36,057 bases of DNA from a virus: positions 1 to 36,057 of the IMG/VR virus record IMGVR_UViG_3300033144_005398. One strand, 5' to 3'. The position numbers and the translations under genes are program-made. Position 1 is the stretch's first letter; the number at the start of each line of letters is the position of its first letter. Shown in pieces: positions 1-19,836 of the stretch. Below the pieces are notes generated by a model that worked only from the letters and a program-made list of their open reading frames with translations, was not told the DNA's origin and made no database searches.

Positions 1-3000
1 CGTGCCCGCCTCTAGCGCAGCGACCACGGGGCTGGGTGCCATCGGTGCGTCACTGGTGATGTTCCACCGGCGTTTGTCTTGCGGCCGGCGCGCCATTACG
101 AAATTAACCGCGCCGTTGATGTCGTGGCCTTCCGCGACGAGCTGGTCGAGAACGTCTTGATGCGTGCCGAGCATCGCCGAGAAGACGAAGACCTCCTCGT
201 TGGCGAGCTGCACGCCTCGGATGGAACTGTTGAGCACATCCTGGGCTGACGCGACGGCGCCGAGCTGCCGCGCCTCGGTGTTCAGGAAACGCTCGAGCTC
301 TTGCGGGCTCGGGTCCGAGATGGCACCGAACTGATCAGGCGCCCCCGGCAGTCGGAGGTGCGCCCGCGGCGTAATGTCTATTGTTTTGGTGCGGGCGCTT
401 TGCTCGAGCGTGCGGCCTTCTTGGCCCTCCACGCCTCGGCTGACTTCCGCGGCGCGCTCTTCTTGTGCCCGCTTAGCGTCTGCAGCTCGAGCTTGCGCGC
501 GGCGGCGTCGAGTTCCGGCCTGTATTGCTCTCTTGATGTCTTTTGGGTCATGGCCTGCCTCCTCGGCTAGGATCTGAAACTCGATCGAATAGTCTGTGGG
601 AGCCGTCCTCTTGTTACCCGTGCCGAGGACGTTCCAGAGCTCCTTCTCAGGATACCATATCAGCGCCTGAAAGTCAGCAATCTCGAGCTCGATGCCGCGC
701 TCGTTCAATTCGTCGACGGCGATCTGCGTGGCCTGGCGCATGTAGTTCCGGTGCTCGCCGCCGCTGGGCTGCGCGAGGATTTCCTTGTGCATGTCGACCA
801 GGCGCTGCGCGGCGAGGAAGACCACGTCGCGCTGCATCTTCATCTTGGGCGAGCCGTCCTCGTTGAACTTGAGCTCGCCCTTGTTGTTGGTCTCCTGGCG
901 CAGCGCCTTCTGCCAGCCGCGCTTGCCGGTGGTGTTCAGCTTGTTGAGCTGGACGGCAATCTCAAAAAGCTGCTCGTCGGTCATGTCGCGGACGCGACCC
1001 TTGTGGCCGGCGTGCTTGATCCACTCTCGGGTCAGCGTGCTGCGCATGCGGGCGTACTGCTCACGAGGCCTGGCCGGATCGAGGTCGGGGATCATACCCC
1101 CACTCAAGCGGCCCCAGGTCCGCATGTACCAGAGATCCATGGTGAGGTGCGAGAAGTTGCCCTGCAGGTTGGGGAAGAACCCGCCGCCGACCTTGGGGCC
1201 GAAGATCACCGCGGTCGGCACGACGGTGTCGACGGTCTCGCCTGAGATCTTGTAGCCATCGGCTTGCAGATCGCCGACCTTGCGCTCGACCATGAGCCAC
1301 TCGATCAACCCGGCCACGTCACCGTTCCACTCTGCCTCGAGCGTGTTCCACAGCTCGAACGCTTTCTTCATCGCCACGGTCTCGGTGCCGAAACCCCAGT
1401 CGGGCATCTTGCCGGTGGCCTTGTACTCCCGGTAGACCGCCCAGCCGTTCTGTGAATTCTCGGGCACCGACGTGCCGTTGCTGGTGATGGCGAGCGCGAA
1501 GTTGAACGCGCCCCGCATGGCCGGATCCTTGGCGAGCTCGGGGAACTCGAGCGCCACCACGTCGTGGGCCTCGGCGACCTTGTCGCGATACCAGGTCGTC
1601 GCGTTGCCGTCGGCCTGGACAGCGTACAGCGCCTCCTCGACCATCACGTTGGCGATGGCCTGGGCGTTCTCAGGGGAGAATTCGGTGCGGCTGACCGAGA
1701 GGTCTCGCAGGATCTCGGCGACCTGGCGCACGGTGCGCCGCACCCGTGGCGCGGGCGGGCCGACGAAGTGCATCAGGTCGATCGTCGTGACCGCGAGCTC
1801 CTCCGCGGTCAACGGCTCGCGGTCCTCGAGCGCCTGCTCGGCAGCCTGGGTCACGTCGGCGGCGGACTGGTACAGAATATTCGGGTTATTCGGATCGTAG
1901 GTGCCGCGGTTGTTGACGCTCTTGATCTGGGTCGGCTCGAAAGCGACGTAGCTATCGGCGCTGCCCTCGATCGTGTTTTTATAGACCAGACCGTCGTGGC
2001 CCTCGGCCTTGGCCTTTTCGATGACCGGCCCCCAGTCACCCGCGCCAACATCGGCAACCCTCTTGGGGTTCTTCAGCGAGAGGTAGGCCTCGGTGAAGAT
2101 GCCCATCTCGTCGGGCTCGATACCTTCATCTACGCTGTTGTCGAAGTCGTCCATCGCCTGGCTCTCGCCAAAACCTTTAGCGGCCGTCTCGCTGGGGTAT
2201 CCTTTCTCGGCCCCTGCGTCGAACGAGGTGGTGCCGTCCCTAAGCGCCCAGTGCCAGGCACCCGTGTCATCGTCTTGAAACGTCGTTACGCCGGTGAGCT
2301 CGCGCTCGTACTCCTTGCCTGCCGCACGTTCGTACGCTGCGCGGTAGGTGCCGAAGTGCATGCCCGATCGGGGAATGTCATTGTTCTGCTCGTCGAAGTC
2401 ACCGTGATGGTAGACGACCATCGGATCGCCGCCCTTGTTGACGATCACGCTGCCTTCGAACCAGGCCTGGAACGCAGGGTCGGCCAGCGGCGCCTGCTCG
2501 AGCGTCGTCTCGGCGTCGACCACCAGGCTGAGCGCGTCGTTGGCCTCGCGCGCGGCCTCGCGAGCGGCCAGGATGCGCTCGTGCAGCGATCCGGTGTCGG
2601 TGTCGCCTACCTCGACAATGCCCTGTGTCGGGCTGTCAGGCGTTCCTAGAGCGTCGAGCTCCTCGACCTGCTGCGCCTCGAGCGCGCGGATCTCGGCCTC
2701 GGCCTCGATCACAACGTCGACCGCGGCCTTGACCTCGGGCGATCCGCCTGGCGGGGGCGGGGTGATCTGGTCTTGCGTGGTGGTGCCGGCGACAACCTCG
2801 CCAGCCTCACCGGCTCGGATCTCAAGCGTGTCGACCCACGCCGGCATCTCGCCGTACATGGCCAGGGCTGTCGCGGCACGGGCACGTAGCAGGGAGGCCT
2901 CCACGCGGGCCACCGAGGGCGTCTGGCCGGCGGCGAGGAGCTGGCCCTCGAACTTCTCTTGGATGGCCTCGAGCGGCGTCTGGGCGGCGTCGTGGGCCGC

Positions 3001-4725
3001 GGCAAAACGCTCGGCCTCGGCGAGCTCCAAGTCCCAGATCTCACTCGACTTTTCGTTAAACTCTGCCGCCTGGTTGAGCGACATCTCGTCCTGGCCGAAT
3101 TTAATATCGTTGACCAACGCCTCACCGGCCGGCGTGCCGGCGATGTGAGACTGGAAGAGCTCGAGCGGGATCGCGACGAAGTCGCCCCGCGTCTGAGCGT
3201 CGAGCAGTTCCTCGACGAAGTCCTGCCCGCCGATCTCGTCGAAGTCGAGCTTCTCGCTCTGCTGCAGCCCGATGACGATCTCGGGGTCCATGTAGATCTC
3301 GCTGGGCGAACCCATGCTCTCGTACGCATGGCGGATCCAGTCGGCGTAGGCGCTGGGCGACCGCTCGCGCAGCGTGGACGCCTCGGCGCTGCTGTTGAGC
3401 ATCTCGAAATACTCACGGTTCCGCTCGGCCCGCTCGGCGATCGTATAGTCGTTGTACAGGCCGTTCCCGCCGCGCCGTAGGCCGAGCGCCGTGCGCATGA
3501 TGGCGGCGACCGTGCCGGCGGTGAGGCCCTCCTTGAGCATGCCGTCGATGTCGCCGCCCACCTGGCGGTTGGGGTCGTACGTCAACGCCGTCACGACATC
3601 TTGGCCGAGCTTCTCGGCGATCTCTTGCGTGGCCTCGATGCCGAACGCCACGGCCTTGTCGGCCAGCCAGCGCATCGCCTTGTTTCTGATCTCGGGCGGC
3701 ACCCGGTTGAGGATCTTGTCGAGCCCGATCTTCTCGGCCATTGCCGTGACCAGGCCGTAGGATGTCGTCACGACGTGGCGGTCGTGCTCGGAGACCGTCT
3801 CGCCGGTCTTCTTCTCGTGAGCGGCCATGTCCTCGAGCGCCTGGTCGACGCCGCTGCCGAACATCATGACGATGCTCGGGATCACGGTAGTGCCGCCGGT
3901 GGCGATGCCGAGCACGACCTGGCCGGTCATCTGGCCGAGGCCGGCGGCAACGTCGGTGCTAAAATTCCGACGCTCGGGCGCCGGCTTCATATCTTCGCCC
4001 CAGTCCTTGAGAACCTCGCCCGGCTTCGAAGCGATCTCGCCGAGCTTGAGATACCACGGCAGGCTGTCGTCGAGGTTGTCGAGGAAATCGGGTAGGGTCT
4101 CGAGACCCATCAAGCGCATATCGTTGGTCACGCTGCGCGCCAGGCCGCTGATCCACTCGCCGACCCCATGGACGCCCATACCGGCGAAGTCCTTGACGAC
4201 GCCGCCAGCGAAGGCCCCGGCCTCGTCTTGGATGATCCCCTTCGCCCACTTCTCTTCCCAGTCGATGAGCTGATCGATCACGTCGTGGGTGATCCTGGCG
4301 TTCTCACCGGCGCCCTTGGTGTACCAATCGCGTGTGACGGGCGCGCCCGTCAGTTTTTCCGCCGTCTCTTTGGCATCCTTTTCCTGCTTGGCCGCGGGGA
4401 GGTTGCGCTCGGCGACATCGGCCGGGATGCCGGTGGTGTTCTCGATGCGCTTCGCCTCGGCCACATCGTCGGGCTTGGCGGCGGCGCCTACACGCGTGGC
4501 GCTCTCGAGCTCACCGATCTCCTTCTCTCTCTTGAAGAACGCATCGTAGCCGGGGTCGGGCTCAGCCTCGGGCGCGGGGCCGGTCTCGACCTCGGGCGCC
4601 CGAAGCGAGATGTCCTTGCCCTGGAAGAACGCGTCGTAGCTGTCAACGTCGGGATCCGGCACGACAGGGTCGGGCTCCTCGCGCTGCTGCTTCACGAACT
4701 CATCGAAGTTGAAGACTTCAGCCAT
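1..4725 (-). CDS. Giant polyvalent internal virion (ejection) protein with ADP-ribosyltransferase-like domain, C-terminus cut off by window edge
   Basis: An uninterrupted frame of 1575 codons starts at the ATG at 4723-4725, which overlaps the upstream TAA by one base, and runs off the window at base 1. Near the N-terminus a short YDAFF motif occurs twice. A glycine-rich hydrophobic stretch (about residues 255-290) could contact membrane. Residues about 750-955 resemble the ART-PolyVal domain: VVYHHGDF near 770, then GMHFGT, FEPTQIKS, and the usual closing motif DPNNPNILYQS. Residues about 1065-1230 (starting near FALAITSNGTSVPENSQNG) resemble a second domain common in phage polyvalent proteins (DUF7178-like). 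Position directly after internal virion proteins B and C matches T7 gp16, so co-injection with DNA is inferred. ADP-ribosylation of host targets is plausible but unproven. No lytic transglycosylase motif is visible in the part present. Confidence 0.85.
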   Translation of the reverse strand, partial: MAEVFNFDEFVKQQREEPDPVVPDPDVDSYDAFFQGKDISLRAPEVETGPAPEAEPDPGYDAFFKREKEIGELESATRVGAAAKPDDVAEAKRIENTTGIPADVAERNLPAAKQEKDAKETAEKLTGAPVTRDWYTKGAGENARITHDVIDQLIDWEEKWAKGIIQDEAGAFAGGVVKDFAGMGVHGVGEWISGLARSVTNDMRLMGLETLPDFLDNLDDSLPWYLKLGEIASKPGEVLKDWGEDMKPAPERRNFSTDVAAGLGQMTGQVVLGIATGGTTVIPSIVMMFGSGVDQALEDMAAHEKKTGETVSEHDRHVVTTSYGLVTAMAEKIGLDKILNRVPPEIRNKAMRWLADKAVAFGIEATQEIAEKLGQDVVTALTYDPNRQVGGDIDGMLKEGLTAGTVAAIMRTALGLRRGGNGLYNDYTIAERAERNREYFEMLNSSAEASTLRERSPSAYADWIRHAYESMGSPSEIYMDPEIVIGLQQSEKLDFDEIGGQDFVEELLDAQTRGDFVAIPLELFQSHIAGTPAGEALVNDIKFGQDEMSLNQAAEFNEKSSEIWDLELAEAERFAAAHDAAQTPLEAIQEKFEGQLLAAGQTPSVARVEASLLRARAATALAMYGEMPAWVDTLEIRAGEAGEVVAGTTTQDQITPPPPGGSPEVKAAVDVVIEAEAEIRALEAQQVEELDALGTPDSPTQGIVEVGDTDTGSLHERILAAREAAREANDALSLVVDAETTLEQAPLADPAFQAWFEGSVIVNKGGDPMVVYHHGDFDEQNNDIPRSGMHFGTYRAAYERAAGKEYERELTGVTTFQDDDTGAWHWALRDGTTSFDAGAEKGYPSETAAKGFGESQAMDDFDNSVDEGIEPDEMGIFTEAYLSLKNPKRVADVGAGDWGPVIEKAKAEGHDGLVYKNTIEGSADSYVAFEPTQIKSVNNRGTYDPNNPNILYQSAADVTQAAEQALEDREPLTAEELAVTTIDLMHFVGPPAPRVRRTVRQVAEILRDLSVSRTEFSPENAQAIANVMVEEALYAVQADGNATTWYRDKVAEAHDVVALEFPELAKDPAMRGAFNFALAITSNGTSVPENSQNGWAVYREYKATGKMPDWGFGTETVAMKKAFELWNTLEAEWNGDVAGLIEWLMVERKVGDLQADGYKISGETVDTVVPTAVIFGPKVGGGFFPNLQGNFSHLTMDLWYMRTWGRLSGGMIPDLDPARPREQYARMRSTLTREWIKHAGHKGRVRDMTDEQLFEIAVQLNKLNTTGKRGWQKALRQETNNKGELKFNEDGSPKMKMQRDVVFLAAQRLVDMHKEILAQPSGGEHRNYMRQATQIAVDELNERGIELEIADFQALIWYPEKELWNVLGTGNKRTAPTDYSIEFQILAEEAGHDPKDIKRAIQAGTRRRRAQARAADAKRAQEERAAEVSRGVEGQEGRTLEQSARTKTIDITPRAHLRLPGAPDQFGAISDPSPQELERFLNTEARQLGAVASAQDVLNSSIRGVQLANEEVFVFSAMLGTHQDVLDQLVAEGHDINGAVNFVMARRPQDKRRWNITSDAPMAPSPVVAALEAGT

Positions 4726-6812
4726 TATTTAGTGCCCGCCCACTTCGTCCCATAACGCTCATTGATGTAGTTGTTGTAGGCCTCGAGCAGTTGCTCGTCC
4801 GAAGGCACGGTGCCCTTGCTGTTGATGTACGATTGCTTGAACCTATCGATCACCAGGTCGGGAATGTCATCGAGATCCGACAGGAAGAACACCTCGCCCG
4901 GCCTCATTTCGTACACCCGCTTATCGGGATCGTAGCTGTGGCCGAGAGGCTTACCGCGGACCTCGCCGTCCAGGTACAGCTCGTCGGCCATCCGGCGGAT
5001 ATCCGCCGACGACGCCTTGCTTTTGGTCTTCTCCTCGAGCTGGGCGATCTCAGTGTCCAGCCGGCGGTTGAAATCGTTGATATTGTCGGCGTTGGTAACG
5101 CCCTTCAGCACGTTCGCGACGATCTGGCTCTTCGTCTGCATGGCCGTCTTGGCAGCCACCGGGTTCTTCAGCAGCGCGCCCTGCTCGGCTGCAAACCGCT
5201 TCCATTCCTCCACGGTCAGACCGAGCAGGTAGTCTTTCTGGAGTAGATCCTCCTTCGCGAACTTGGCGGGATCTTCCTTCATCTTGGTTAGCTTGTAGAA
5301 CACACGCGGGTCACCCATGATCGGCGCCTTGCGGTTCGCGCGTGCCGAGAGCATCTGCAGCGTGTTGTTCATGTTGCCGCCGACCTCGGCCAGCACGGCG
5401 GCGGGGATCTTGTCGTACTCGCCCGCCCGCGCCGAAGCCACGGCCTCGGTTTTCCTCGCCCGCATCTGCTCCTTCTGAATGGTGAGCCTGGAGCTGATGC
5501 CAGCCTTGACCTGCTTGACCAGCTCGTCCCGCATGCCGGTCTTGTCTTTGTCGATCGAACCGTCTTTGTTTGTGTACTGCTTCTCGGCTGCCTTGACAGC
5601 CGTCTCGATGTTCCCGCTCTTATCATAGACCCCTATGATATTGTCGAAGTCTCCCGCCACCGTCACGGCCTGCTGGCGCGATTTCTCCTTCTGATACCAG
5701 CCGTGGAATTTCTTGATGTTGGCCTCGACCTCGGCACGCACGAGCACGTCCTTGATCTTGGACGCTGCTTTCATATTGACCGTGAGATCGTCGCTATCGA
5801 GGAGAATTTCGTCGGCGAGCCGGCGACCTTCCTGCGTGACCGTATGCACCTCGAGTGTCTTGGACATCCGCGCCTGGTCGTCGGCGCTGAACGGGTTGTT
5901 GTTCTCCTGCTCCTTGACCCACTCCTTGAGGATCTTGATATCCTTTTCGACATCCTTCTCGGCCGAGCCCTCGGCCCGCACGATCGCCTCGGCGTTGCTG
6001 ATGTTGTCGTTCTTGTTGTACTCGATCTCGATAGGGTTATCGCCATTCGTGTGCGTCGGGCGCCCCGCGGCGATGTGCCGGGCTGCTTCCAGGTCTCCTG
6101 CTTCACGCGCGCCAAGGAAGGCCCCTGTCGCGAGATCCCTGCTCGCCTTTTCCAGCCGCTCGAGCTCCTGGCGCGTCGAGAAGACGTTGCTAAAATCGCC
6201 ATGCACATCGAGCAATTTCTGGCGTTCGTTGTTGTACGTTATGTAATTCTCGCGCACGCGCGTCACCGACGCCGCCGTGGTGTGGTCAAGCGTGACTTCC
6301 GCCTTGGCACGGTTCGTATCGACGACGTTCTTGGCGGTGCCCTGGCTCGCGCGAAGCCTCGCCGCCTCGAGCCGCGGGCCAAGATTGCTCGCGCCTCGGT
6401 TCGTCAAGCCGCCTTTCGAGGCGTCCTCCATCGCGATCTGGAGTTGCGTGGCAAAAAACTCGTCCTGGGTGGATTGGTGCGAAGGGTCGGACGCGTCGTC
6501 CTCGTTCTCCGATCGGAGCATCTCGGCGGCGATCTTGGCCTCGTAGTCGAGCACCGCGGTGGCGCTCGCGTTGGCGTCATTCAGCGCGATCTGCTTGCCC
6601 GCGTAGCTATTGACCAGGCCTTGAAACTCTTTGGCGGCAGCCGCCGTCTGCCTCCCTCCGAACGCGTCGGGGTGCAGGTTGACGCCAGGGTCGTGCGCAT
6701 ACTCGGTCTTGCCCGGCATGTTCTCGAGGCCGGGCGCCTTGGCAGGGCGCGCCTTACCTTGCGGCCCCGCGTTGTGGGGCCGCGTCTGGAGCAGGATTTC
6801 GTTCTCGGCCAT
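4725..6812 (-). CDS. Internal virion protein C-like (T7 gp15-like core protein)
   Basis: A 695-residue soluble protein, rich in charged residues and Ala, predicted mostly helical, without signal peptide or membrane segment. No catalytic motif is visible. The call rests on size, helical composition and position: it lies between the short gp14-like protein and the giant gp16-like protein, the standard order of podovirus ejection proteins. In T7, gp15 forms part of the internal core and joins the DNA-ejection conduit. The ATG at 6810-6812 lies two bases after the previous stop, without a strong ribosome site, so translational coupling is likely. The final TAA overlaps the start of the giant gene by one base. 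Sequence identity to known gp15 proteins is probably low, so the family is inferred from context. Confidence 0.7.
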   Translation of the reverse strand: MAENEILLQTRPHNAGPQGKARPAKAPGLENMPGKTEYAHDPGVNLHPDAFGGRQTAAAAKEFQGLVNSYAGKQIALNDANASATAVLDYEAKIAAEMLRSENEDDASDPSHQSTQDEFFATQLQIAMEDASKGGLTNRGASNLGPRLEAARLRASQGTAKNVVDTNRAKAEVTLDHTTAASVTRVRENYITYNNERQKLLDVHGDFSNVFSTRQELERLEKASRDLATGAFLGAREAGDLEAARHIAAGRPTHTNGDNPIEIEYNKNDNISNAEAIVRAEGSAEKDVEKDIKILKEWVKEQENNNPFSADDQARMSKTLEVHTVTQEGRRLADEILLDSDDLTVNMKAASKIKDVLVRAEVEANIKKFHGWYQKEKSRQQAVTVAGDFDNIIGVYDKSGNIETAVKAAEKQYTNKDGSIDKDKTGMRDELVKQVKAGISSRLTIQKEQMRARKTEAVASARAGEYDKIPAAVLAEVGGNMNNTLQMLSARANRKAPIMGDPRVFYKLTKMKEDPAKFAKEDLLQKDYLLGLTVEEWKRFAAEQGALLKNPVAAKTAMQTKSQIVANVLKGVTNADNINDFNRRLDTEIAQLEEKTKSKASSADIRRMADELYLDGEVRGKPLGHSYDPDKRVYEMRPGEVFFLSDLDDIPDLVIDRFKQSYINSKGTVPSDEQLLEAYNNYINERYGTKWAGTK

Positions 6813-6814
6813 GA

Positions 6815-7372
6815 TCAGTACCCGCTGCTGCTGTACGGCCCGCCACCACCACCGCTGTAGCTGGCGTAGTTGCTGTAGCCGGTGCCTTGGGTCGTGTACG
6901 ACCCACCACCACCACCGCCGATGCCGCTGGCAATGGCCGAGCCGCCGCGTGCGAGGCTGCCCGCTGCTTGCCAGTAGCCCGCCGTTTTCGCGTTCTCGCC
7001 GGCAAACATCAGGCCGGTGGCCTCTTGCTCGAGCCGGGTCGCGCGGTCTTCGCCGCCGGCCTCGAGCAGCGCGGCCTTATATTCCGCATCCGCATCCAAG
7101 GTATCCACGACCAGGCTCTCCGATCGGCCAGGGCTGTCGCCGCCGCGGCTACTGAGGACGAGCCGTCGGCGTGCCTGGTGGGCGCTGCTCTCGCGCTTGA
7201 GATCTCTCGCTTTCATGATGGCGATCTCGCGCTCACGCTGAGCCTGTTGCTCCTTCACCTCGGCCTGGTAGTTGAGCATCTTCTGCTGCTGCTTGGCAGC
7301 AGCCATCTGTGACGCGGCGGTGATCGCCGCCGAGATCGCCATCATGATGATGAGTGTTGTCGTCGCGACCAT
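6815..7372 (-). CDS. Internal virion protein B-like (T7 gp14-like)
   Basis: A protein of 185 residues. The chosen ATG (7370-7372) overlaps the upstream TGA by one base and has GGGAGAGG a few bases before it. A GTG at 7390 would add six residues but lies inside the previous gene. The N-terminus is a hydrophobic helix (TTLIIMMAISAAITAASQMA), followed by a charged coiled-coil-like stretch rich in Gln, Lys and Glu, then a Gly/Ser/Tyr-rich flexible tail. This plan (membrane helix, AAxQQQ-type coiled coil, Gly-rich end) is typical of podovirus internal virion protein B, which inserts in the host envelope during ejection. The neighbours fit: GNAT and tail nozzle genes upstream, gp15-like gene downstream. 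Confidence 0.75.
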   Translation of the reverse strand: MVATTTLIIMMAISAAITAASQMAAAKQQQKMLNYQAEVKEQQAQREREIAIMKARDLKRESSAHQARRRLVLSSRGGDSPGRSESLVVDTLDADAEYKAALLEAGGEDRATRLEQEATGLMFAGENAKTAGYWQAAGSLARGGSAIASGIGGGGGGSYTTQGTGYSNYASYSGGGGGPYSSSGY

Positions 7373-7836
7373 CAGGCCTCTCCCATCCACAGGGTTTGCA
7401 CCGGGCGCATGCCCATCCGTTTATAAATCTTGCCGAGCCTCGAGATGGGCACGTCGTCCTCGTTGTCGTGGAGCTCGCTCCACTCTTGGATCTTCACGCC
7501 GTTGATACTCTTTCGCTGCTCGACCTTGCGCATCAGCATCAACAGCGCCATCGGCGGGGCGTCGTCGGCCATGAGCATGAAGACCTCGGACGCCAACTTG
7601 CGTTTAGGGTTCCAGCAAAAAGGCCCGTAGCTCATTCCGATCGCGCCCACGATATAGCCGTCTTCATTCTCCGCGACCACCACCTCAACACCTGGAATGC
7701 CCAGTATCCAACCCAGCCCGCCGGCGAGTGCGTCGTCACCCATGGGCACGAACCCTTCCAGCGCGCCGTACCGGTACGTCTTGTTGAGTTCGAAGAGCGC
7801 CAGTGCATCTCGGTCCTCGTACATTCGAACGATCAT
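7372..7836 (-). CDS. GNAT-family acetyltransferase-like virion-region protein
   Basis: A protein of 154 residues. The N-terminus (MIVRMYEDRDALALFELNK) matches the first strand and helix of GNAT folds. The central VVVAENEDGYIVGAIGMSYG matches the beta-hairpin before the acetyl-CoA site. EVFMLMADDAPPMALLMLMRKVEQ would be the CoA-binding strand and helix, though a clean Q/RxxGxG/A loop is not obvious. The C-terminal RLGKIYKRMGMRPVQTLW is typical of GNAT ends. GNAT-like genes recur between tail nozzle and internal virion protein genes in many podoviruses, and their target is generally unknown. The start overlaps the upstream stop as ATGA. It could also be a structural protein with a degenerate fold. 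Confidence 0.75.
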   Translation of the reverse strand: MIVRMYEDRDALALFELNKTYRYGALEGFVPMGDDALAGGLGWILGIPGVEVVVAENEDGYIVGAIGMSYGPFCWNPKRKLASEVFMLMADDAPPMALLMLMRKVEQRKSINGVKIQEWSELHDNEDDVPISRLGKIYKRMGMRPVQTLWMGEA

Positions 7837-10781
7837 GTCATCGGCTTCACATCAACCTCGGGGATCATGTCGAGCAACGTGAACGGCGTCGGACTGTCGC
7901 TCTCGATGTAGAGCCTGGGATCTTCCTCCCAGTCGCCCTCGGTCTCGTGGAAGAACTGTCCGCTGAACAGCGGCGCCGCGGTGTCGATCTCATCCGCGAC
8001 CTGCCGGAAATCGTGCTCGATCAGGTCGCCCTCGTTGGTGCCGAACGTGATGCCGTGCGAATTCAACAACGCGAACGTCACGCCGCTGATGCGCTGCACG
8101 CGACCGACCGCGGTGCCGCTCGGGCTGCCGCCCTCGTGCGGCAGGGTCTTGAGCTTGTGCGTGTAGCCGAGCCCGATCTGCACGACCGACGCCGGCTCGT
8201 CGAGCGTGATCGACCCGCTCGCCACCGTCTTGTCAGCCTGCACCGCGCCGTCGGCCAAGACTTTCACCACCTGGCCCTCGAGGTGCGTTATGCCGGTTAT
8301 GGTATCAGTTATGTTACCGTCGTACGTGACCAAGGCGTCCGAATAATACGCGTCCTCCTGCTCGTGCCCGTTCTCGTAGTCGCGCTCGAACACCTCGATA
8401 TAGCGCACGGTCGCGCCGTTGATCGTGCGCTTGACCTGGCACCACACCTCGTCGCGGCTGGTGCTGTCCTGCACCTGGCCACTGCCGTTTGTGCCGGGGA
8501 TGACCGTGATGCTCTCGACAACGGCGGCGGTCGTTTCCTGAACGAAGAGCTGGTCGATGATGGGATTGGTCGAGTAGACCGTCGTGACACGCGCGCGGAC
8601 GTAGTACTGCGCCTTGCCGATCTTGACCGTGCTCTTCTCCCAGTCGGTCGGCATCGTCCACGTTACAGTGAGACTATCGGCGGCAGCGGTCGTAAAACCC
8701 ACGGTCCCATCTGTGAGGCCCGATACCGCGGTCCAAGCAGTGCCGTTCCAGTATTCCCACGCCACGACACCTCCGACGCCAGCAGTGCCATTCGCGTAGT
8801 CGAAAGTAAGTTGCGCAAAGGTACTGTCGAACCCGAACGCAACGTAATCCCCGACGGCTTCCGAGGCGGGAAAAAGCGTGACATCAGCGTCGGTCGTGCT
8901 CTTGGCATCGTTGGTTTCCTCGACGTAGGTATCGGCGCTGGCGTCGTACTGCCACACCCGCTTGGCGTTGGCGATGTCGTTCTTGAACTCGCCACCGATG
9001 ATCTGCCGGGTCCAGCCGACGACATCCTCGTCGCGGCGGAACGTCATGGTCGGGACCACGCCATCCTCGCGCGGCGCCCAGACCAGACTGTTGGGTTCCT
9101 CCGCGTAATCCATCTCGACGACGCCGCCGCGGGTGATGTGGAACGCCAGGCGCGTCATGTCGAACGCCTCGAGGCCGTTGGCCTCGAACGAGTAGGCGAG
9201 CTCCCAGATCTTGCGCTTGGCCTTCTGAACGAACAGCACGGCGCGGCCGACGCGCAGCGGCTGGATCTCGGCCGAGCCATGGCTGGTCGCCTTGTGGACG
9301 GCGATGTCGTCGGGCGCCAGCGCGGCGCCGACCGAGCTCGGCTGCCACTCGCCACCGCGGGTGCCGATCTGCAGGCTCTCTTCGCCGGCCGACATCCAGT
9401 TGATGGCCTCGACGGTATTGGATCCAACCCGCCAGTCGATGCTGTCGTCGCCCTCGACCGTGCCGTCGAACGTGCCGGCGGTCGGGTCGCTGTCGGGCGC
9501 CATGTTCTGAAAATCAGCGACGTTCGATCCCCAGAAATTCTGAGGCTCGAGCGTGGTGTGGAACGAGAACAGCCGCTGGTCGAAGAACACGCCGCCGCTG
9601 GGGTAGCCCGTCGTGGCCGACCAGCTCCCCAGGATCCACTTGGTCTCGGCCGTCGTCGTGTTCATCGTGCGCCGGATGTCGACCTTGACCACCGTCGTGG
9701 ACGTGACCGATACGATGACGCCCCAGCCCCAGTCCACCGTGGCGTCGGTGTAGCGGATCAGGCGCCCCACGTCGGTCGACTGGAAGCCGGTGTCGTTGTT
9801 GATGCCGAGGATCGATGACGCCGTGAGATCGATGCCGAGCCCGGTGGCCGCGGTGGGCGTGATCGTGGTGGCCGTCTCGTTCTCGTTGAGCCAGGGACCG
9901 TCCTGCCAGTCGACCTGAACGATCGCCCAGCGCGCGTGGCCGCGTCGCTCGAGCTTATGGGTCGGGTGGGCGACGTTGTACAGGTAGAGCACGTCGGCGC
10001 TCTGTGGCCCTTCGACCCGGTACAGCACCGCCTCGGGCCATGGTGTGGTAACTTCAAGTGGCGCGTCGTCGATCAGACTGACATCGTCGATGTGCAGCGC
10101 CTTGTTGCGCACGCTGCCGTCGTTGATGAATTGAACGTAGAAGGTGGCCCCGGTCGCGGTGAAACTGTAGGCGTGCCAGCCGACCTCGGCCTTGAAATCG
10201 AGAACCAGTTGCGAGCCCGTCGAGGCCGTGCCGATGCGGAGCTTGACGCTGTCGCCAGGCGCGCCCAGCACGCGGAAGTGCAGGACGTGCTCGCCCGACA
10301 CCGTGTTCGAGACCGCCTGCTCGGTCCACGCCAGGTCGGTCGTGGCCGTGCCGCCGGGCGTGAGCTTTATGGCGTTGTTGCCGCTGTCGTGTGCCTGGGC
10401 ACCGCTGCCCGTCGAGCGGTCGGTCCAGCTCGTGAGATCACTGTCGAACGTACCGTTGGCGATCGCGCTGTCGGTGTTCTGAACGACGATCTGCGCCTGG
10501 TCTTTGAAGAACCGCATGTTCTGCTCGCCGACCTCGAGCACGTACGCCTGCTCGGTCGAGTACTCGAACCGCTTGATGCGGCTCTTGACCGTGGCGCCGG
10601 TCTTGGTCGCCGCGACATAGCGTGCGCCGGCCCGGCGGAAGACACCGCCCTCGGGCAGGCAGACCACGTTCTCGCCGCGGGACAGCGCGTTCTTGAATTT
10701 CGAAAAGTCGGTTCGATACTCGAGCCGCTCGCTGAACTCACCAGCGTTGAAATTCTGTTGGGGCGGTTGGGTGCGGGGCAT
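7833..10781 (-). CDS. Tail tubular protein B-like (T7 gp12-like tail nozzle protein)
   Basis: A protein of 982 residues. The N-terminal signature QNFNAGEFSERLEYRTDFSK, then FKNALSRGENVVCLPEGGVF and RRAGARYVA, is the hallmark opening of podovirus nozzle/stabilisation proteins (FNAGExSPxLxGRxD ... N xxxxPxGGxxRRPGT). The rest is beta-rich, with an inserted carbohydrate-binding-like sandwich near residues 100-240. The C-terminal half carries DSIDWRVGSNTVEAINWMSA and later ETEGDWEEDPRLYIESDSPTPFTLLDM-like segments typical of this family. The nozzle closes the tail and binds the adaptor encoded just upstream. The gene starts one base after the tail tubular A stop and ends overlapping the GNAT gene by four bases (ATGA). 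Confidence 0.92.
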   Translation of the reverse strand: MPRTQPPQQNFNAGEFSERLEYRTDFSKFKNALSRGENVVCLPEGGVFRRAGARYVAATKTGATVKSRIKRFEYSTEQAYVLEVGEQNMRFFKDQAQIVVQNTDSAIANGTFDSDLTSWTDRSTGSGAQAHDSGNNAIKLTPGGTATTDLAWTEQAVSNTVSGEHVLHFRVLGAPGDSVKLRIGTASTGSQLVLDFKAEVGWHAYSFTATGATFYVQFINDGSVRNKALHIDDVSLIDDAPLEVTTPWPEAVLYRVEGPQSADVLYLYNVAHPTHKLERRGHARWAIVQVDWQDGPWLNENETATTITPTAATGLGIDLTASSILGINNDTGFQSTDVGRLIRYTDATVDWGWGVIVSVTSTTVVKVDIRRTMNTTTAETKWILGSWSATTGYPSGGVFFDQRLFSFHTTLEPQNFWGSNVADFQNMAPDSDPTAGTFDGTVEGDDSIDWRVGSNTVEAINWMSAGEESLQIGTRGGEWQPSSVGAALAPDDIAVHKATSHGSAEIQPLRVGRAVLFVQKAKRKIWELAYSFEANGLEAFDMTRLAFHITRGGVVEMDYAEEPNSLVWAPREDGVVPTMTFRRDEDVVGWTRQIIGGEFKNDIANAKRVWQYDASADTYVEETNDAKSTTDADVTLFPASEAVGDYVAFGFDSTFAQLTFDYANGTAGVGGVVAWEYWNGTAWTAVSGLTDGTVGFTTAAADSLTVTWTMPTDWEKSTVKIGKAQYYVRARVTTVYSTNPIIDQLFVQETTAAVVESITVIPGTNGSGQVQDSTSRDEVWCQVKRTINGATVRYIEVFERDYENGHEQEDAYYSDALVTYDGNITDTITGITHLEGQVVKVLADGAVQADKTVASGSITLDEPASVVQIGLGYTHKLKTLPHEGGSPSGTAVGRVQRISGVTFALLNSHGITFGTNEGDLIEHDFRQVADEIDTAAPLFSGQFFHETEGDWEEDPRLYIESDSPTPFTLLDMIPEVDVKPMT

Positions 10782-11390
10782 TTAGCGCGGCCAGAATTGT
10801 CGCTGGCCACCGCGGACACCAGCCCACGTTCCCTGTGGCCGGCGCGCGGCGGGCATCCCGATCGCGTCGGTCGCCCTGGCCTTGGCCATCCCTACCCGAA
10901 GCTCATCTCGCAGCTCTCGCATGAGGAGGCGAGAGTTGGCGATCGGGATCGCCATGTCCATGGCCAACCAAAGCGACAGCGCATACCGAAAATCCGAGGT
11001 CATCAGATTTGGGTCGTCCTCGAGCCTGACGTACCGGAGGTAGACATCCTCCTCGTCAGCCATGATGACACGCGCGCCATCCTGCTGCTCGACCTTGTGA
11101 TCCATGCTGGCGTAGCCGCTGTCGTTGTCATGCGCGCTGATCGTGCGCACCCAGTCGGCCGGCAGCACGTAGGCGTAATTGTAGCCGTACACCGGCGTCT
11201 CCGAGCTCCGCGCGAGCTTGGCGCGGGCGGTGGCGAAATTCCACGGCGACGAGCGGAGGCAAGCCTCCAGCACGCCGTCGTAGATGTCGTTCGCGACGTT
11301 GGCATTCTTGTCGCCGGCGAGACGACTGGAGACCGTCTTCGCCCCGATCTTACGGAGCGCGACGTTGATGATGTCGGTCGTGTCAGCCAT
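10782..11390 (-). CDS. Tail tubular protein A-like (T7 gp11-like adaptor)
   Basis: A protein of 202 residues, the usual length of gp11-like adaptors. Motifs of the family are visible: an opening DIINVALRKIGA, then ANVANDIYDGVLEACLRSSPWNFATARAKLA, then YGYNYAYVLPADWVRTI, and a helical C-terminal half ending with the Arg/Trp-rich GGQRQFWPR. The adaptor ring bridges portal and nozzle. The ATG at 11388-11390 follows an AGGGA ribosome site about seven bases upstream, and the gene directly precedes the nozzle gene with no gap. The family usually shows W-N-F-A after SSPW, which is intact here. Confidence 0.92.
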   Translation of the reverse strand: MADTTDIINVALRKIGAKTVSSRLAGDKNANVANDIYDGVLEACLRSSPWNFATARAKLARSSETPVYGYNYAYVLPADWVRTISAHDNDSGYASMDHKVEQQDGARVIMADEEDVYLRYVRLEDDPNLMTSDFRYALSLWLAMDMAIPIANSRLLMRELRDELRVGMAKARATDAIGMPAARRPQGTWAGVRGGQRQFWPR

Positions 11391-11768: not shown

Positions 11769-12375
11769 AGTGGTCTTCCCTCCATTGCGTGTAGATGGCC
11801 CGGTCGGCATCGCGGTCGTCTTTTCGGTAGGTCTGATCCATCAACGCCATGCCATTGGAAAAGTGATGGTGGGTCAGCTTAACATGGGCGAGATACCGAC
11901 GTACCCCAATATTCTTGGCGTAGTCGTTCCACACCGTGTCGATGTAGAGCCTCGACAGTCCTGGCAGCGCGAGCACGCCGACCCGGCGCACCAGGTCGCC
12001 GCCGAGAACGAAGTGCGTGCCGAACTTCTCACCATTGATGCCGTCGTCACCGAACGCCATGCCGTCCTCGGCCGCGGCGGCGATCAATCGCTGGTCCCAG
12101 CCGTAGGTCACGGGCATGACATCGTCGGCCAGGAAGCCGTACCATGGCTGTGTCTCGTGGCTGAAGAAGAACTCGTTGTAGAGCTCGGCGAGACCCGTAC
12201 GCTTGCGGATGAGCAGAGCCCAGTGCTCGGGGAGCTCGAGCTCTATGTAGCCGCCGATCATAGGATCGTCGTCGTCGACCATCACGATGGCCGGTGTCGA
12301 CATATCAGTCTGCTCGCAAGCGATCGCGAGGCACTGAAGCCTATGTGCGCGCGACCGGCTCGGGATGATCCACAT
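11755..12375 (-). CDS. Glycosyltransferase-like protein, GT-A/family 2 type
   Basis: The chosen start is the ATG at 12373-12375 (MWIIPSRSRAHRLQ), giving 206 residues. It overlaps the upstream gene by 35 bases, and a longer frame to 12453 is mostly shadow. The opening IIPSRSRAHRLQCLAIACEQ is the usual first strand and helix of GT2-like proteins, and VMVDDDDP (about residues 31-38) looks like the nucleotide-sugar/metal DxD region. A later GYGWDQRL-like segment and THFVLGGDLVRRVG may form the acceptor side. It probably acts in the cytoplasm, transferring the sugar made by the cassette, but donor and acceptor are unknown. It is a compact form without membrane helices. Confidence 0.65.
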   Translation of the reverse strand: MWIIPSRSRAHRLQCLAIACEQTDMSTPAIVMVDDDDPMIGGYIELELPEHWALLIRKRTGLAELYNEFFFSHETQPWYGFLADDVMPVTYGWDQRLIAAAAEDGMAFGDDGINGEKFGTHFVLGGDLVRRVGVLALPGLSRLYIDTVWNDYAKNIGVRRYLAHVKLTHHHFSNGMALMDQTYRKDDRDADRAIYTQWREDHYVDV

Positions 12376-13246
12376 GCGCTGCGTCCAAGATCGAGGAATA
12401 GATTTGGCGCGCAGTATACCGATGCCGCACCTCTTCCGATAGGCGGCGGGCAAACCACCGGGCGTCGGCGAGCCTGGTGGTCTTGATCAGCTCAGCCGCA
12501 TGCGGCGGATCCCGGTAGGTGATGTAGCAATCGTCGGGGAACCAATCGCCGATCGGCGAGTGCTCGGGCTCGAGCAGGCAGCACTCGGCAAACCCGGCCT
12601 CGAGCACGCGACCCTTGATGTGGTGGCGGTGGCCGGATCCGGTCCTCGACACGTTGAGGAGCATCTCGCACCGCAACATGAAGGCGGCGTGGTCGGCGTA
12701 GGAGCGCGCTGGGTCGCGGGGAGCGATCGTGAGGCCCCCGAACCACTCGAGCGCCCTAACGATCTCTGAGCGAGGGCTGGGACTGCCTACCGACCCGCTA
12801 AAACCGCACAGGATGTCGCGGTCGGGAACGTGCTGGTCGAACGCCCGGTCGTCGACCGGCGTCAGCGTGATCAGCTCGAGCTCCGACGGCCCCCCGCCGT
12901 CGATGCTGACCTGGGCGGCGAAGCAGCCCAAGGCGTTGTAGTCTCGCAGCAGCGCGTGCCACGGCTTGTCGGTCGCATCGCACACCAGGTGGATCATCGG
13001 CACCATCGTGCCGAGCTGGCGCAGCGTGTCGACCGTCGGGGTGCCAGGCGCATTCACCGCGCCGATGTAGAACATGATGTCAGGGCTCTCGAGCTCAGCC
13101 GCCTCGATGAGCTGCCAATCGTTGCGCACGACATTGCGGCCGGAATGGAGGAACCGCATGTCCGCGGCGGGACCGTAGACGCTCTCCCACGCGCGCATAT
13201 GGTTCTCGCAGTCGGCCGTCTCGGTCATGAGAAAGAGGGCCTTCAT
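12341..13246 (-). CDS. Glycosyltransferase-like protein, GT-B/CgeB-like type
   Basis: A protein of 301 residues beginning MKALFLMTETADCENHMRAW. The C-terminal third carries the clearest signal: RGRVLEAGFAECCLL-like residues (KGRVLEAGFAECCLLEPE), followed by FPDDCYITYRDPPHAAELI, matching the donor-binding end of GT-B enzymes of the CgeB/Glyco_trans_1_2 type (G-R-x-x-E-x-x-A-x-G ... E). The middle IMFYIGAVNAPGTPTVDTLRQL and MIHLVCDATDKPWH match the N-terminal Rossmann half. It starts with an ATGA overlap to the TPP-enzyme beta half and overlaps the next transferase by 35 bases, so the two transferases are probably coexpressed. Confidence 0.72.
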   Translation of the reverse strand: MKALFLMTETADCENHMRAWESVYGPAADMRFLHSGRNVVRNDWQLIEAAELESPDIMFYIGAVNAPGTPTVDTLRQLGTMVPMIHLVCDATDKPWHALLRDYNALGCFAAQVSIDGGGPSELELITLTPVDDRAFDQHVPDRDILCGFSGSVGSPSPRSEIVRALEWFGGLTIAPRDPARSYADHAAFMLRCEMLLNVSRTGSGHRHHIKGRVLEAGFAECCLLEPEHSPIGDWFPDDCYITYRDPPHAAELIKTTRLADARWFARRLSEEVRHRYTARQIYSSILDAAHVDHPEPVART

Positions 13247-13767
13247 AGCTGGCTGCTGTCCTCGACCACGATCGAACTGTAGGGGGACGCGAAGGCGTGC
13301 TGGTAGGCGCCCAGGATCTCGTCCGCCTTGTCGAGGTGGATGACCTCGATCGTATGGAGCATCTGCTCGACCGCACCTGAGAAGTCACCCAGGTGCTGCT
13401 CGCCTGGCCACAGCGGCGTGACGGCGCCGATGCCAACCCTGATGATCACCTTGGGCCGGTAGTCCGACATCGACGAGTATTTGTCGAGGTGGTTGACGAG
13501 CTGGTTCATGGCGAGCAGCAGGAAATTCCAACGCGGGTAAATCGAGATCGGCAGATACCCTGCGAGCGACATGCCGGTGCATATGCCGAGCTGCATCTCC
13601 TCGGCGACCGGGAGCTCAATACGCTTCTCCATGGGCACGCCGGCGAGCGTGCCGAACATGGCGGTGCCGGGGTAGGCGACAGACTGGCCGAGGAAGACGG
13701 TGCCGTGCTGCTCACCCAGCCACGTCATCGCCGCGGTGAGCTCAGAACTGTATTCGCTTGCCGGCAC
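13243..13767 (-). CDS. Thiamine-diphosphate enzyme, E1-beta-like pyrimidine-binding half
   Basis: About 174 residues from the GTG at 13767. An ATG at 13821 would add 18 Ser/Pro-rich residues and overlap the alpha half by 80 bases, so I prefer the GTG, though neither start has a good ribosome site. Family features include YSSELTAAMTWLGEQHG, the conserved ELPVAEEMQLGICTGMSLAG containing the Glu that activates the cofactor aminopyrimidine, and the IVNQ-like MNQLVNHLDKYSSM. LWPGEQHLGDF is the usual G-x-QHS region. The normal C-terminal transketolase domain (about 130 residues) is missing. It should pair with the alpha-like half just upstream. Pyruvate-type two-carbon transfer to a sugar is one inference, and transketolase activity is another. 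Confidence 0.75.
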   Translation of the reverse strand: MPASEYSSELTAAMTWLGEQHGTVFLGQSVAYPGTAMFGTLAGVPMEKRIELPVAEEMQLGICTGMSLAGYLPISIYPRWNFLLLAMNQLVNHLDKYSSMSDYRPKVIIRVGIGAVTPLWPGEQHLGDFSGAVEQMLHTIEVIHLDKADEILGAYQHAFASPYSSIVVEDSSQL

Positions 13768-14314
13768 CAGCGTGGGGCCACTTTGACTTGTATTCGAAGG
13801 AGGTGATGTTGGGCTTTCCATGCGGCATTATCTCGCTGGTTGGGGTGCAAACCGAAAGGTCATTGTCCTCGACAATGAAGCGTATCGGCAAATCTACGCT
13901 CCACTGCGCACACTCCATCGCGATGCCGCTGCACGCAGTCATGTCGCCCATGAAGCAGTGAACCTTGGTCGTGTAGGCGCTGCGCTTGATCGCCATGGCG
14001 ATGCCGACCGCGATCGGGATCGAGCCGCCGACGATGGCCGACGACAGCACACGGTACTCAGGGAAGCACAGCGCCATCGATCGGCCCATGTGGATCGCCT
14101 CGAGCACCTCGTCCTCGGGCACGCCCTTGAGCAGGCACTTAAGGTGGCTGCGCCAAGAACAGATGACCCAGTCGTGGTATCCTATATCCTTGAATACACC
14201 GATCAACTGTTGTTCATTGCCGTTCTCAAGATGAACCGGGAACGGGATGGCGCCTGCGTTGAAGGTCTCGGCGATGTACTCTTCGAACGCCTGGAGCTCC
14301 TCGACGGTCTTCAT
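13742..14314 (-). CDS. Thiamine-diphosphate enzyme, E1-alpha-like diphosphate-binding half
   Basis: A protein of 190 residues. WVICSWRSHLKCLLKGVP (about 49-66) matches the E1-alpha segment seen in TPP enzymes of nucleotide-sugar clusters (typically RSHYHYLLKGG). VGGSIPIAVGIAMAIKRS (about 95-112) precedes the metal/diphosphate motif: GDM at 123-125, then EDN ending at Asn151, which fits GD-x(24-28)-N. The usual third Gly of GDG is Met here. The protein ends shortly after this motif, so it is about 130 residues shorter than dehydrogenase E1-alpha. The stop overlaps the beta-like half by 26 bases, which implies coupled 1:1 synthesis. Confidence 0.78.
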   Translation of the reverse strand: MKTVEELQAFEEYIAETFNAGAIPFPVHLENGNEQQLIGVFKDIGYHDWVICSWRSHLKCLLKGVPEDEVLEAIHMGRSMALCFPEYRVLSSAIVGGSIPIAVGIAMAIKRSAYTTKVHCFMGDMTACSGIAMECAQWSVDLPIRFIVEDNDLSVCTPTSEIMPHGKPNITSFEYKSKWPHAGAGKRIQF

Positions 14315-14634
14315 CTTACCACCTTCGCCAGCGTGCGCATGTCCTCGAGGTGGTAGCGCACCGCCGTGAGCTCATTCGTCATATCCTTGGCGCCCTTGGG
14401 CCGTAGGCCGAGCTCCCAACCACAGTCCATGGCAGCCTGCAGGAAGCTCTCGACCTGGTCGGCCGGGATCACCTGCTCGCTCGTCGGCATCAGATGGGTC
14501 CGCGGTATGGTCTCGAGCCCCATGTTGACGACCACGGCCTTACCGTCGCCATCCTCGCGGATCATCGCGAACTGGTGGCCTTGCAGGTCGGGCTGCCACT
14601 GCGCCCACATGCGCCAATGGTTTCGGTAGATCAT
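14311..14634 (-). CDS. Hypothetical protein (107 aa) in sugar cassette
   Basis: A protein of 107 residues, joined to both neighbours by four-base ATGA overlaps. It starts MIYRNHWRMWAQWQPD, unusually rich in Trp, and contains EDGDGKAVVVNMGLETIPRT and a helical C-terminus (RYHLEDMRTLAKVV). No family is recognised. The tight coupling between the small gene at 14631-14819 and the TPP-enzyme alpha half argues that it is a real gene. A similar gene next to the tail region of other phages cannot be excluded. Confidence 0.65.
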   Translation of the reverse strand: MIYRNHWRMWAQWQPDLQGHQFAMIREDGDGKAVVVNMGLETIPRTHLMPTSEQVIPADQVESFLQAAMDCGWELGLRPKGAKDMTNELTAVRYHLEDMRTLAKVVR

Positions 14635-14819
14635 TCCTGTGCCTTCTGCTGGGCGTGCCGGTAAATCGCGGTCGCCTGGTGAGCTCCGACCTCGCGCAGG
14701 TAGGCCTGATCGTGGAGCTGATCGAACGTAATCTGCTCGCTCGTGTAGACCGTACCCTCGGGCGCGTCGGTGATATAGGTCTCACCTTCCGGCAGCAACA
14801 TCATCACGAGCTGCATCAT
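14631..14819 (-). CDS. Small hypothetical protein (62 aa)
   Basis: A short frame starting at the ATG at 14817-14819 (MMQLVMMLLPEGETYI) that overlaps the kinase stop as ATGA and ends overlapping the next start as ATGA. The product has a hydrophobic Met/Leu-rich start, an acidic middle (DAPEGTVYTSEQITFDQLHD) and a basic, Gln/Lys-rich end (RHAQQKAQE). It is too short for a domain call. Evidence for coding is the exact fit between two genes with four-base overlaps on both sides. A longer reading upstream to 15047 would only be a shadow of the kinase gene. Confidence 0.6.
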   Translation of the reverse strand: MMQLVMMLLPEGETYITDAPEGTVYTSEQITFDQLHDQAYLREVGAHQATAIYRHAQQKAQE

Positions 14820-15781
14820 GAGATCACCAGCTCGGTGCCGTTGGTGCCGAACGTGAACGGGCACTCGAGCAGCTCGGGGAGCTCGGCGCGCAGCTTGCCG
14901 GGGTCGCGCGTGTAGAACAGCATGAAGCCGCCGCCCCCGGCGCCGAGCACCTTGCCGCCGAGCGCGCCCGCGGCCATGGCCCGCTGGTAGATCAGATCGA
15001 TCTGTGGGTTCGAGACCTCGGTGGCGAGCGCACGTTTCAATATCCACGTCTCGTCGAGCAACGCACCGAAATCGTCGAGCCGACCCTTTATCAGATAGTC
15101 CACGGCTCTAGGCACCAGCTCCTGAATGCCGGCGAGCTCGTTCTCTCGACGGGCCTCGACCTGCTTGGCCTGGATCTCGGTCGAGTACCGCTGGATGCCA
15201 GTGAAGAACAGCAGCAGCCGGTCCTTAAGCGTATCCCGCGTCGTGTTCGCCAGCGGCAGCGGGGCCACCGTCCAGGTGCCGTCGGTCTTGAATGTGATCA
15301 CGTTGAGCCCGCCGATGGCACAAGCGATCTGGTCTTGCAGCCCGACGGTCTCCTGCAGGATGTTCTGCTCAACGTGAACGGCCTCGCGCGCGAGCCGTCG
15401 TCGATCGACGCCGCCGTTACCCTCCATGACGTGCAGCGCGTGCAGCATGCCGACCGTGAAGGCCGAGCTCGAGCCCAGCCCCGACCGCGCCGGCAGGTCG
15501 CCGGCATGGTTGACCTCGACGCCTTGCTTGATGTCGAGGGCCTGCAGGCAGCCCCGCACACCGTTGTGCTGGATCTCCTCGATCGTGTCGCACTTCTCGA
15601 ACTTGCTCCAGACGACCCGGTACTTGGTTCCGAGGTAGGCCGGCATCTCACGCAGGCTGACGTAGCAGTACTTGTCGAGCGTCGAGCTCAGCACGACGCC
15701 ACCATGCTTGCCGAACCAGGCGGGGAAGTCGGTGCCGCCGCCGAAGAACGAGACCCGGTACGGTGTGCGTGTGATGATCAT
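14816..15781 (-). CDS. GHMP kinase, HddA-like sugar kinase (heptose 7-phosphate kinase family)
   Basis: A protein of 321 residues from the ATG at 15779-15781, which overlaps the nucleotidyltransferase stop as ATGA. All three GHMP motifs are present: the N-terminal RTPYRVSFFGGGTDFPAW (5-22), the phosphate loop PARSGLGSSSA (97-107), and the C-terminal KVLGAGGGGFMLFY. The N-terminal FFGGGTDFPxW form is characteristic of HddA, which phosphorylates D-glycero-D-manno-heptose 7-phosphate at C1, and of close relatives acting on other sugars. It probably feeds the nucleotidyltransferase encoded directly upstream. No isomerase (GmhA-like) or phosphatase (GmhB-like) is present, so the host would have to supply those steps if the substrate is a heptose. 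Confidence 0.85.
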   Translation of the reverse strand: MIITRTPYRVSFFGGGTDFPAWFGKHGGVVLSSTLDKYCYVSLREMPAYLGTKYRVVWSKFEKCDTIEEIQHNGVRGCLQALDIKQGVEVNHAGDLPARSGLGSSSAFTVGMLHALHVMEGNGGVDRRRLAREAVHVEQNILQETVGLQDQIACAIGGLNVITFKTDGTWTVAPLPLANTTRDTLKDRLLLFFTGIQRYSTEIQAKQVEARRENELAGIQELVPRAVDYLIKGRLDDFGALLDETWILKRALATEVSNPQIDLIYQRAMAAGALGGKVLGAGGGGFMLFYTRDPGKLRAELPELLECPFTFGTNGTELVIS

Positions 15782-16179
15782 TGCATGGCCCTTTTCACAA
15801 GTTTGTCGGACGACTGCACCTTGGCGCCGCCGACGATCTCCGTGATGCCGAACTCCTCGCACACCGCGTGCTCGGCGTCGGAATGGTTGTCCCATGTGCG
15901 GTCGCCACCGTTGACGAAGAAATCCGGCTGGTAGAGGCGTAGGGTCTCCGCGACGTGGCCAGGCGCATCGTTCGCCTCGACGACGTTCTGCACGCCCTCG
16001 ATGGCGCCCATGATGCGTCGGCGCTCGGGGTAGGGCATGAAGACATATCCCTTCTTGGACATGAGCCAGGCGTCGGTGTTCAGGATGACCATGACGGCGC
16101 CGTGCTTGCCGGCTGCCTCGATCAGGTCGAGGTGGCCAATGTGGAGCGGGTCGAACCCGCCTGAGATTGCAGCGATCAT
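15778..16179 (-). CDS. Cytidylyltransferase-family nucleotidyltransferase (RfaE2/TagD-like)
   Basis: A compact protein of 133 residues. The signature SGGFDPLHIGHLDLIEAA (about 6-23) contains the HIGH motif that binds the nucleotide, and the C-terminal KVQSSDKLVKR corresponds to the second ATP/CTP-binding loop (RTSSTxLIxRI in relatives). FFVNGGDRTW is the conserved middle strand (D-x-x-x-x-G-x-D). Enzymes of this size activate sugar 1-phosphates or polyol phosphates with a nucleotide. RfaE2-type members make ADP-heptose and TagD makes CDP-glycerol. Next to an HddA-like kinase, heptose activation is the simplest inference, but the nucleotide cannot be read from sequence. Confidence 0.82.
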   Translation of the reverse strand: MIAAISGGFDPLHIGHLDLIEAAGKHGAVMVILNTDAWLMSKKGYVFMPYPERRRIMGAIEGVQNVVEANDAPGHVAETLRLYQPDFFVNGGDRTWDNHSDAEHAVCEEFGITEIVGGAKVQSSDKLVKRAMQ

Positions 16180-19694: not shown

Positions 19695-19836
19695 TGTCCT
19701 GCTCCTTCAGAATTTCGAGTGTGCGCTTGATGAGCGGCTCGAGAACCATCTCGGCATAACGTCGGTTCATCTCGTGCTCGCGCCGGCTCTGCACCAGCGT
19801 GTCGTGGCGGATCTTCGTCGCGGTCAGATATCCCAT
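19663..19836 (-). CDS. Small helical protein (57 aa) overlapping the radical SAM start
   Basis: The frame starts at the ATG at 19834-19836 inside the last codons of the GT8-like gene, with GGAAG about nine bases upstream, and ends with TGA at 19663-19665 inside the radical SAM gene. It fills the otherwise empty 130 bases between those genes. The product starts MGYLTATKIRHDTLVQSRR and continues as one amphipathic helix rich in Arg, Glu and Met, ending RPPCDPSR. No family is recognised. Similar short helical proteins with many charges are common in phage operons. Coding is inferred from position, coupling and sensible amino acid composition. Confidence 0.6.
   Translation of the reverse strand: MGYLTATKIRHDTLVQSRREHEMNRRYAEMVLEPLIKRTLEILKEQDIVRPPCDPSR

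Follow-up and report, generated by a model that had tools for sequence, protein, structure and literature searches.

The window, a stretch of 36,057 bases that is an entire virus record and was not cut from a longer one, begins with the gene of a giant protein which we read, with a probability of roughly 0.55, as a polyvalent ejection protein at the T7 gp16 position, joining a glycosylase-fold core that acts on DNA to an NAD+-using ADP-ribosyltransferase (ART) module with an H-H-S active site. Two vague labels, DUF7178 and ART-PolyVal, thereby become testable enzymes. Polyvalent ejection proteins with ARTs are already known (Iyer et al., 2017, PMC5512222); relative to these, a consistent H-H-S/E subfamily and a DUF7178-type core with a predicted glycosylase fold appear to be new, as far as the literature covered allows. 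In the literature searched, which included the main text of the 2017 paper, neither the subfamily nor such a fold of the core was described and DUF7178 was not named; that main text makes no mention of a glycosylase domain in polyvalent proteins.

The giant gene and its place among the virion genes

The gene occupies bases 1..4725 of the minus strand, with its ATG at 4725, and reads through 1575 codons without a stop codon up to window base 1. What is present is therefore an N-terminal fragment of 1575 aa, and since the window is the whole record, the 3' part of the gene lies beyond the contig end. The sequence-only reading had taken the protein to be at least 1575 residues long, in agreement with this real minus-strand ORF running off the contig and with the full-length syntenic giants of three complete phage genomes, Limnohabitans phage DC33 (3,125 aa), ctQRb9 (3,209 aa) and ctEw122 (2,792 aa). 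DC33 (PQ492659.1) is filed under Inoviridae; its genes are podovirus-like and the taxonomy line looks wrong.

All on the minus strand as well, the gp15-position gene (4725..6812, 695 aa), which has a relative at the same place of another locus (E 4e-26), overlaps the start of the giant gene by one base and follows an internal virion protein at the gp14 position (6815..7390; phrog_418, E 1.3e-13), tail tubular protein B (7833..10781; phrog_376, a tail protein family, E 8.8e-172, and flanked by the tail tubular A and internal virion protein genes) and tail tubular protein A (10782..11390; phrog_394, tail protein, E 6.5e-44; phrog_9239, tail tubular protein, E 3.6e-23). The order on one strand, tail tubular A, tail tubular B, internal virion protein, gp15 position and giant, is that of T7, gp11-12-14-15-16-17. 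In ctQRb9 and ctEw122, tail tubular A is followed by a stabilization protein, a small protein, a gp15-position gene annotated as lysozyme or M23 peptidase, the giant and a tail fibre, and DC33 has the same gene sizes and order, with a gp15-position gene matching an endolysin PHROG. The place of T7 gp16, which had been assigned to the giant from the sequence, is thus supported by the gp11, gp12, gp14 and gp15 equivalents before it and by a like order in three complete podovirus genomes, genes 14, 15 and 16 being consecutive in T7 (PMC8954989). In the interval from the capsid gene to tail tubular A, the minus strand carries a sugar/cofactor gene island (12341-20423) with a glycosyl transferase, a GHMP kinase, an epimerase of the GDP-mannose dehydratase type, a DegT aminotransferase, a B12-binding radical SAM protein and a two-part thiamine-type E1 enzyme (13243-13821, 13742-14314); also on the minus strand, at 29554-32352, a 932-aa protein is built from numerous repeats of a unit resembling ALSALTQYDPPTSAEVAARTxxASAYxTSAQVVA.

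Besides the two domains treated below, the giant possesses an LPD22 domain at aa 75-160 (4246..4503; PF18834, E 3.1e-12, 47 bits at a cut-off of 28.6), a single candidate membrane segment at aa 268-290 (3856..3924) and a conserved mid domain at aa 412-629 (2839..3492; phrog_9880, E 3.6e-26), the PHROG of which also spans the last ~1,300 aa of the complete relatives. The membrane segment, claimed from the sequence, has the top hydropathy of the protein (mean 1.79 over the 19 residues 270-288) and is hydrophobic enough for a membrane helix. An NCBIfam search of the giant gave no match. With at least two distinct polyvalent-type domains among LPD22, the ART fold and the DUF7178-type domain in one large protein, the polyvalent make-up proposed earlier holds, and the giants of DC33, ctQRb9 and ctEw122 score above the cut-offs for LPD22 and ART-PolyVal in three of three cases. 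The described polyvalent ART proteins (PMC5512222; PF18760, PF18834) are likewise very large, combine LPD22, an ART and further domains, are encoded near virion genes and are predicted to enter together with DNA.

By analogy, the giant is very probably injected with the DNA by a short-tailed phage. With T7 gp16 and other podoviral ejection proteins (PMC8954989) it shares the place after the gp11, gp12, gp14 and gp15 equivalents, the large size and the candidate membrane segment, whereas its complete relatives, at 2,800-3,200 aa, are about twice the size of gp16, a transglycosylase domain was not found in the 1575 aa present, and a phmmer search of PDB chains with E values up to 1 gave no T7 gp16 hit. 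The N4 virion RNA polymerase (PMC12633501) is a comparable giant (~3,500 aa), a multi-domain ejected protein with enzyme cargo; the cargo differs, as an RNA polymerase domain was not found in the N-terminal 1575 aa of the giant.

An ART fold with an H-H-S active site

Residues 748-964 (1834..2484, minus strand) adopt, beyond doubt, an ART fold, close to the span of about 750-955 in which the sequence-only reading had placed an ART-PolyVal-like domain, and belong to the subfamily with H-F-G in strand 2 (HFG). The Pfam match to ART-PolyVal (PF18760) at aa 902-939 is weak, scoring 22.4 bits when the whole protein is searched and 29.3 bits when the domain is taken by itself, below the cut-off of 31.2, because the model matches the second half of the domain only; relatives score far above the cut-off, and each of the 60 aligned ART members gives a PF18760 match with E no higher than 0.01. 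A profile built from 59 relatives, with the window left out, recognized aa 748-964 with 165.6 bits (E 1.5e-49); when the protein was shuffled 2,000 times, the top score was 7.4 bits. The structure prediction that had been suggested as a check gave an AlphaFold model of the domain (pLDDT 87.2) whose 50 listed PDB matches in VIA-align were solely ARTs, namely PARPs, tankyrases and the toxins NatT and MbcT (Z 6.0-6.6), and whose best 50 listed Foldseek matches were PARPs throughout (best E 0.04). These Z values are middling, so the case rests on sequence and structure jointly.

An H-Y-E/Q active site had been proposed, with some doubt as to the first histidine of VYHHG. The doubt is settled, since this residue, His773 (2407..2409), aligns with the strand-1 histidine and is intact; it is invariant in the 67 HFG sequences, and the strand-1 histidine is near invariant among 212 distinct phage ART sequences. 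The following residue varies (VYHHG, VYHSG and VYHAG in the nearest relatives, which share with the window the unusual VYH-[HSA]-G-x-F), and the second histidine of VYHHG was ruled out as catalytic on account of this variability. The remainder of the proposed site did not survive alignment, which gives H-H-S and a nearby glutamate: the place of the strand-2 tyrosine is taken by His790 in MHFGT (2356..2358; strand 55-58 of the model), that of the strand-5 catalytic acid by Ser925 (1951..1953; strand 190-194 of the model, present in 65/67), and the loop before strand 5 holds a subfamily-specific acid, Glu920 (1966..1968; 63/67), all on the minus strand. At the front of strand 5, the window has D-S-Y-V-A-F against N-E-Y-I-V-Y in PARP1, with the next glutamine equally spaced; Asp924, directly before Ser925, is not conserved in the HFG subfamily. 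In strand 2, most other ART-PolyVal sequences have an aromatic residue and PARPs have Y-F-A (PMC7955679), as against H-F-G in the window.

At the level of sequence, the H-H-S set is a conserved subfamily. Among 67 non-redundant phage sequences with the strand-2 histidine, serine recurs at strand 5 in 65 and glutamate five residues earlier in 63, while the serine column of the other 135 ART sequences holds E, T, N, H, V or S; this recurrence argues for a conserved subfamily and against decay, which was ruled out because 67 sequences that diverge from each other retain H-H-S and Glu920. In a tree built without the trait columns, the HFG group is strongly clustered, with 5 changes compared to 28.5 in shuffles, although the 5 changes and weak deep branches mean that a single clean HFG clade was not recovered. 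Both types can share one chain: a Dolichospermum phage protein (locus L016, 6438-13601) has at least four ART-PolyVal domains of the aromatic and HFG types.

Triad motifs of ARTs are given in PMC7955679, which lists the clades H-H-h, H-Y-[EDQ] and R-S-E (citing Aravind and co-workers), and the active site of polyvalent ARTs has been given as H-Y-D (PMC5512222); H-H-S matches none of these exactly. Compared with the H-Y-D of the polyvalent ARTs, the giant has a strand-2 histidine, a strand-5 serine and the subfamily-specific glutamate. Asp911 of GHDG, nearly invariant in both ART groups, may be the D meant in the 2017 paper; the model places it before the preceding strand (178-182) and not in strand 5 (190-194). 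The H-H-h ARTs (KptA/TRPT1) share histidines in strands 1 and 2 with the giant, yet have a hydrophobic residue instead of serine at strand 5, and the sequence kin of the giant is ART-PolyVal, not PTS_2-RNA. With H-H-S and a nearby glutamate as active site, ADP-ribosylation cannot simply be assumed. The ART-PolyVal group splits by active site, and as one large conserved subfamily is devoid of the residues from which ADP-ribosylation is commonly concluded, annotation transfer would mislead.

A DUF7178-type core with a predicted DNA-glycosylase fold

The segment described as DUF7178-like from the sequence corresponds to aa 1011-1380 (586..1695, minus strand). The window itself gives no match to DUF7178 (PF23802); kinship is supported by 16 of 66 aligned relatives that do match (best E 2.7e-4). 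A leave-out profile recognizes aa 1011-1380 with 354.8 bits. The family has 533 confirmed matches in IMG/VR.

According to its structure model (pLDDT 89.3, mostly helical), the domain folds like DNA glycosylases with the Lys/Asp pair intact. The best fold matches are the queuosine salvage enzyme QNG1/DUF2419 (Z 10.5; 212 residues aligned at 3.7 A), AGOG, which is an 8-oxoguanine glycosylase of archaea (8.5), and PUGT, a base-modifying enzyme of phages (8.1); the ten best all belong to the DNA glycosylase superfamily (Z 10.5 to 7.0), with the next match at 3.9. The candidate glycosylase-type residues Lys1178 (1192..1194) and Asp1197 (1135..1137), both on the minus strand, are invariant in 106 of 106 sequences within the motif G-P-K-[IV]-G-x-G-F ... 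L-T-x-D-x-W-x-x-R. They are 19 residues apart in 101 of the 106 sequences, compared to 18 in E. coli Nth, and, as in Nth, one stands just before a helix and the other just before the next. QNG1 entries among the fold matches include the mutants K199C and D231N, and K199/D231 is presumably the counterpart of the pair.

Model fold and the order and spacing of lysine and aspartate are therefore like those of the DNA glycosylase superfamily (QNG1/DUF2419, AGOG, Nth, PUGT), whereas the domain of the giant is set in an ejection protein and has no significant sequence-profile match. HhH-GPD (PF00730) gave no match in the domain at E up to 1, with 14 of 14 control genomes matched; profile comparisons with Nth and PUGT gave non-significant probabilities of 0.2% and 1.3%, respectively, the Nth alignment pairing a conserved TSNG-x-x-V-x-x-N stretch with the SAQATDVSVN motif; Foldseek with the model against the PDB gave no E below 0.001; and PDB sequence searches with either the ART or the DUF7178-type alignment gave no credible relative. 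As sequence profiles do not provide a link to glycosylases, the assignment is one at fold level, on a predicted model. With it, DUF7178 can be assigned a predicted fold, two candidate catalytic residues and a position in the machinery of genome entry, and hundreds of phage contigs carry such a domain.

Among 114 ORFs with a DUF7178-type domain, 38 also contain an ART, before or after it, which is of the HFG type in seven (the window included and one locus counted twice). Some ORFs of 433-793 aa have the domain but no ART, and in three cases the locus is the same: in L178, L182 and L183 the domain is a separate protein of 651-793 aa at the gp16 place, followed by a protein of ~1,000 aa which is similar to the C-terminal region of two other giants. 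Portal and capsid genes of L178 and L182 are related to those of the window, in L183 the capsid gene alone. As these are separate proteins at the same locus in related phages, the giant looks like a fusion, with the more conserved DUF7178-type domain as core and the ART as an exchangeable added module.

Proposed role at genome entry and rival readings

Judging from gene position, T7 gp16 and the N4 virion RNA polymerase, the giant would be made late and packed in the head, and then pass into the cell together with the leading DNA and be anchored near the inner membrane. The DUF7178-type core, expected on the cytoplasmic side, probably grips entering or host DNA, as its fold and residues suggest, and, with its lysine and aspartate, probably acts on a base or an N-glycosidic bond. 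The ART module would still use NAD+, with a chemistry that fold and residues place nearer to the H-H-h enzymes (KptA/Tpt1) than to PARPs, and would serve early takeover or counter-defence. Activity of either enzyme would make ejection proteins carriers of cargo, at work on the cell ahead of any phage gene expression. The wider generalization, that a widespread podovirus group injects an active DNA-glycosylase-type core acting on host or incoming DNA at entry, in some phages along with an ART of a new H-H-E/S site and non-PARP chemistry, is tentative.

For the ART module, the alternatives concern what replaced the canonical residues. The weak ART-PolyVal match and the PARP-like fold might suggest that the module modifies proteins as a canonical ADP-ribosyltransferase of the H-Y-E/Q kind, but tyrosine is replaced by histidine and glutamate by serine in the giant and its subfamily, which already refutes the residue set and makes this reading highly improbable. 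As the canonical tyrosine and glutamate are absent, the module may bind NAD+ or ADP-ribose only, and a non-catalytic reader of NAD+, ADP-ribose or an ADP-ribosylated host molecule, which could for instance shield or sense products of NAD-based defence, would agree with the fact that 65 of 67 members have lost both the tyrosine and the acid of strand 5. Such a reader is conceivable, albeit doubtful, since the strand-1 histidine is invariant, the subfamily-specific glutamate and the serine are kept at 94-97%, and TRPT1, an H-H-h ART that has neither the tyrosine nor the glutamate, is given as active on RNA (PMC7955679). With both histidines, the loop glutamate and the serine all kept, the module is more probably still an NAD+-using enzyme.

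The core raises a parallel question, as the giant could serve, like T7 gp16, essentially as a structural conduit that clamps DNA, with a DUF7178-type domain that only holds DNA and an ART as dispensable passenger. Its gp16 position, the binding of DNA without sequence preference by T7 gp16-C (PMC8954989) and the lack of an ART in most DUF7178-type relatives speak for such a clamp, while the invariance and nearly fixed spacing of lysine and aspartate in 106 sequences exceed what holding DNA needs, and we consider it the less probable role. That the domain is no glycosylase relative at all, the fold match reflecting a common helical arrangement, is unlikely: although the model is mostly helical, Z values under about 13 can be spurious for helical folds and a sequence-level glycosylase match is absent, all ten matches at Z of at least 7 fall into one superfamily before the drop to 3.9, and lysine and aspartate each stand just before successive helices, 19 apart, as in Nth. 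A glycosylase-fold core acting on DNA, combined with an NAD+-using H-H-S module, hence remains the preferred reading.

A scan of bacterial genomes found 18 relatives, mostly in metagenome bins, with one Polynucleobacter isolate and one Methylobacterium hispanicum, which does not fix the host of the window. In Polynucleobacter sp. UK-Kesae-W10 (locus L264, 2505 onward), a 3,485-aa ORF with ART and DUF7178-type domains is located on a 1.18 Mb contig, probably as part of a prophage.
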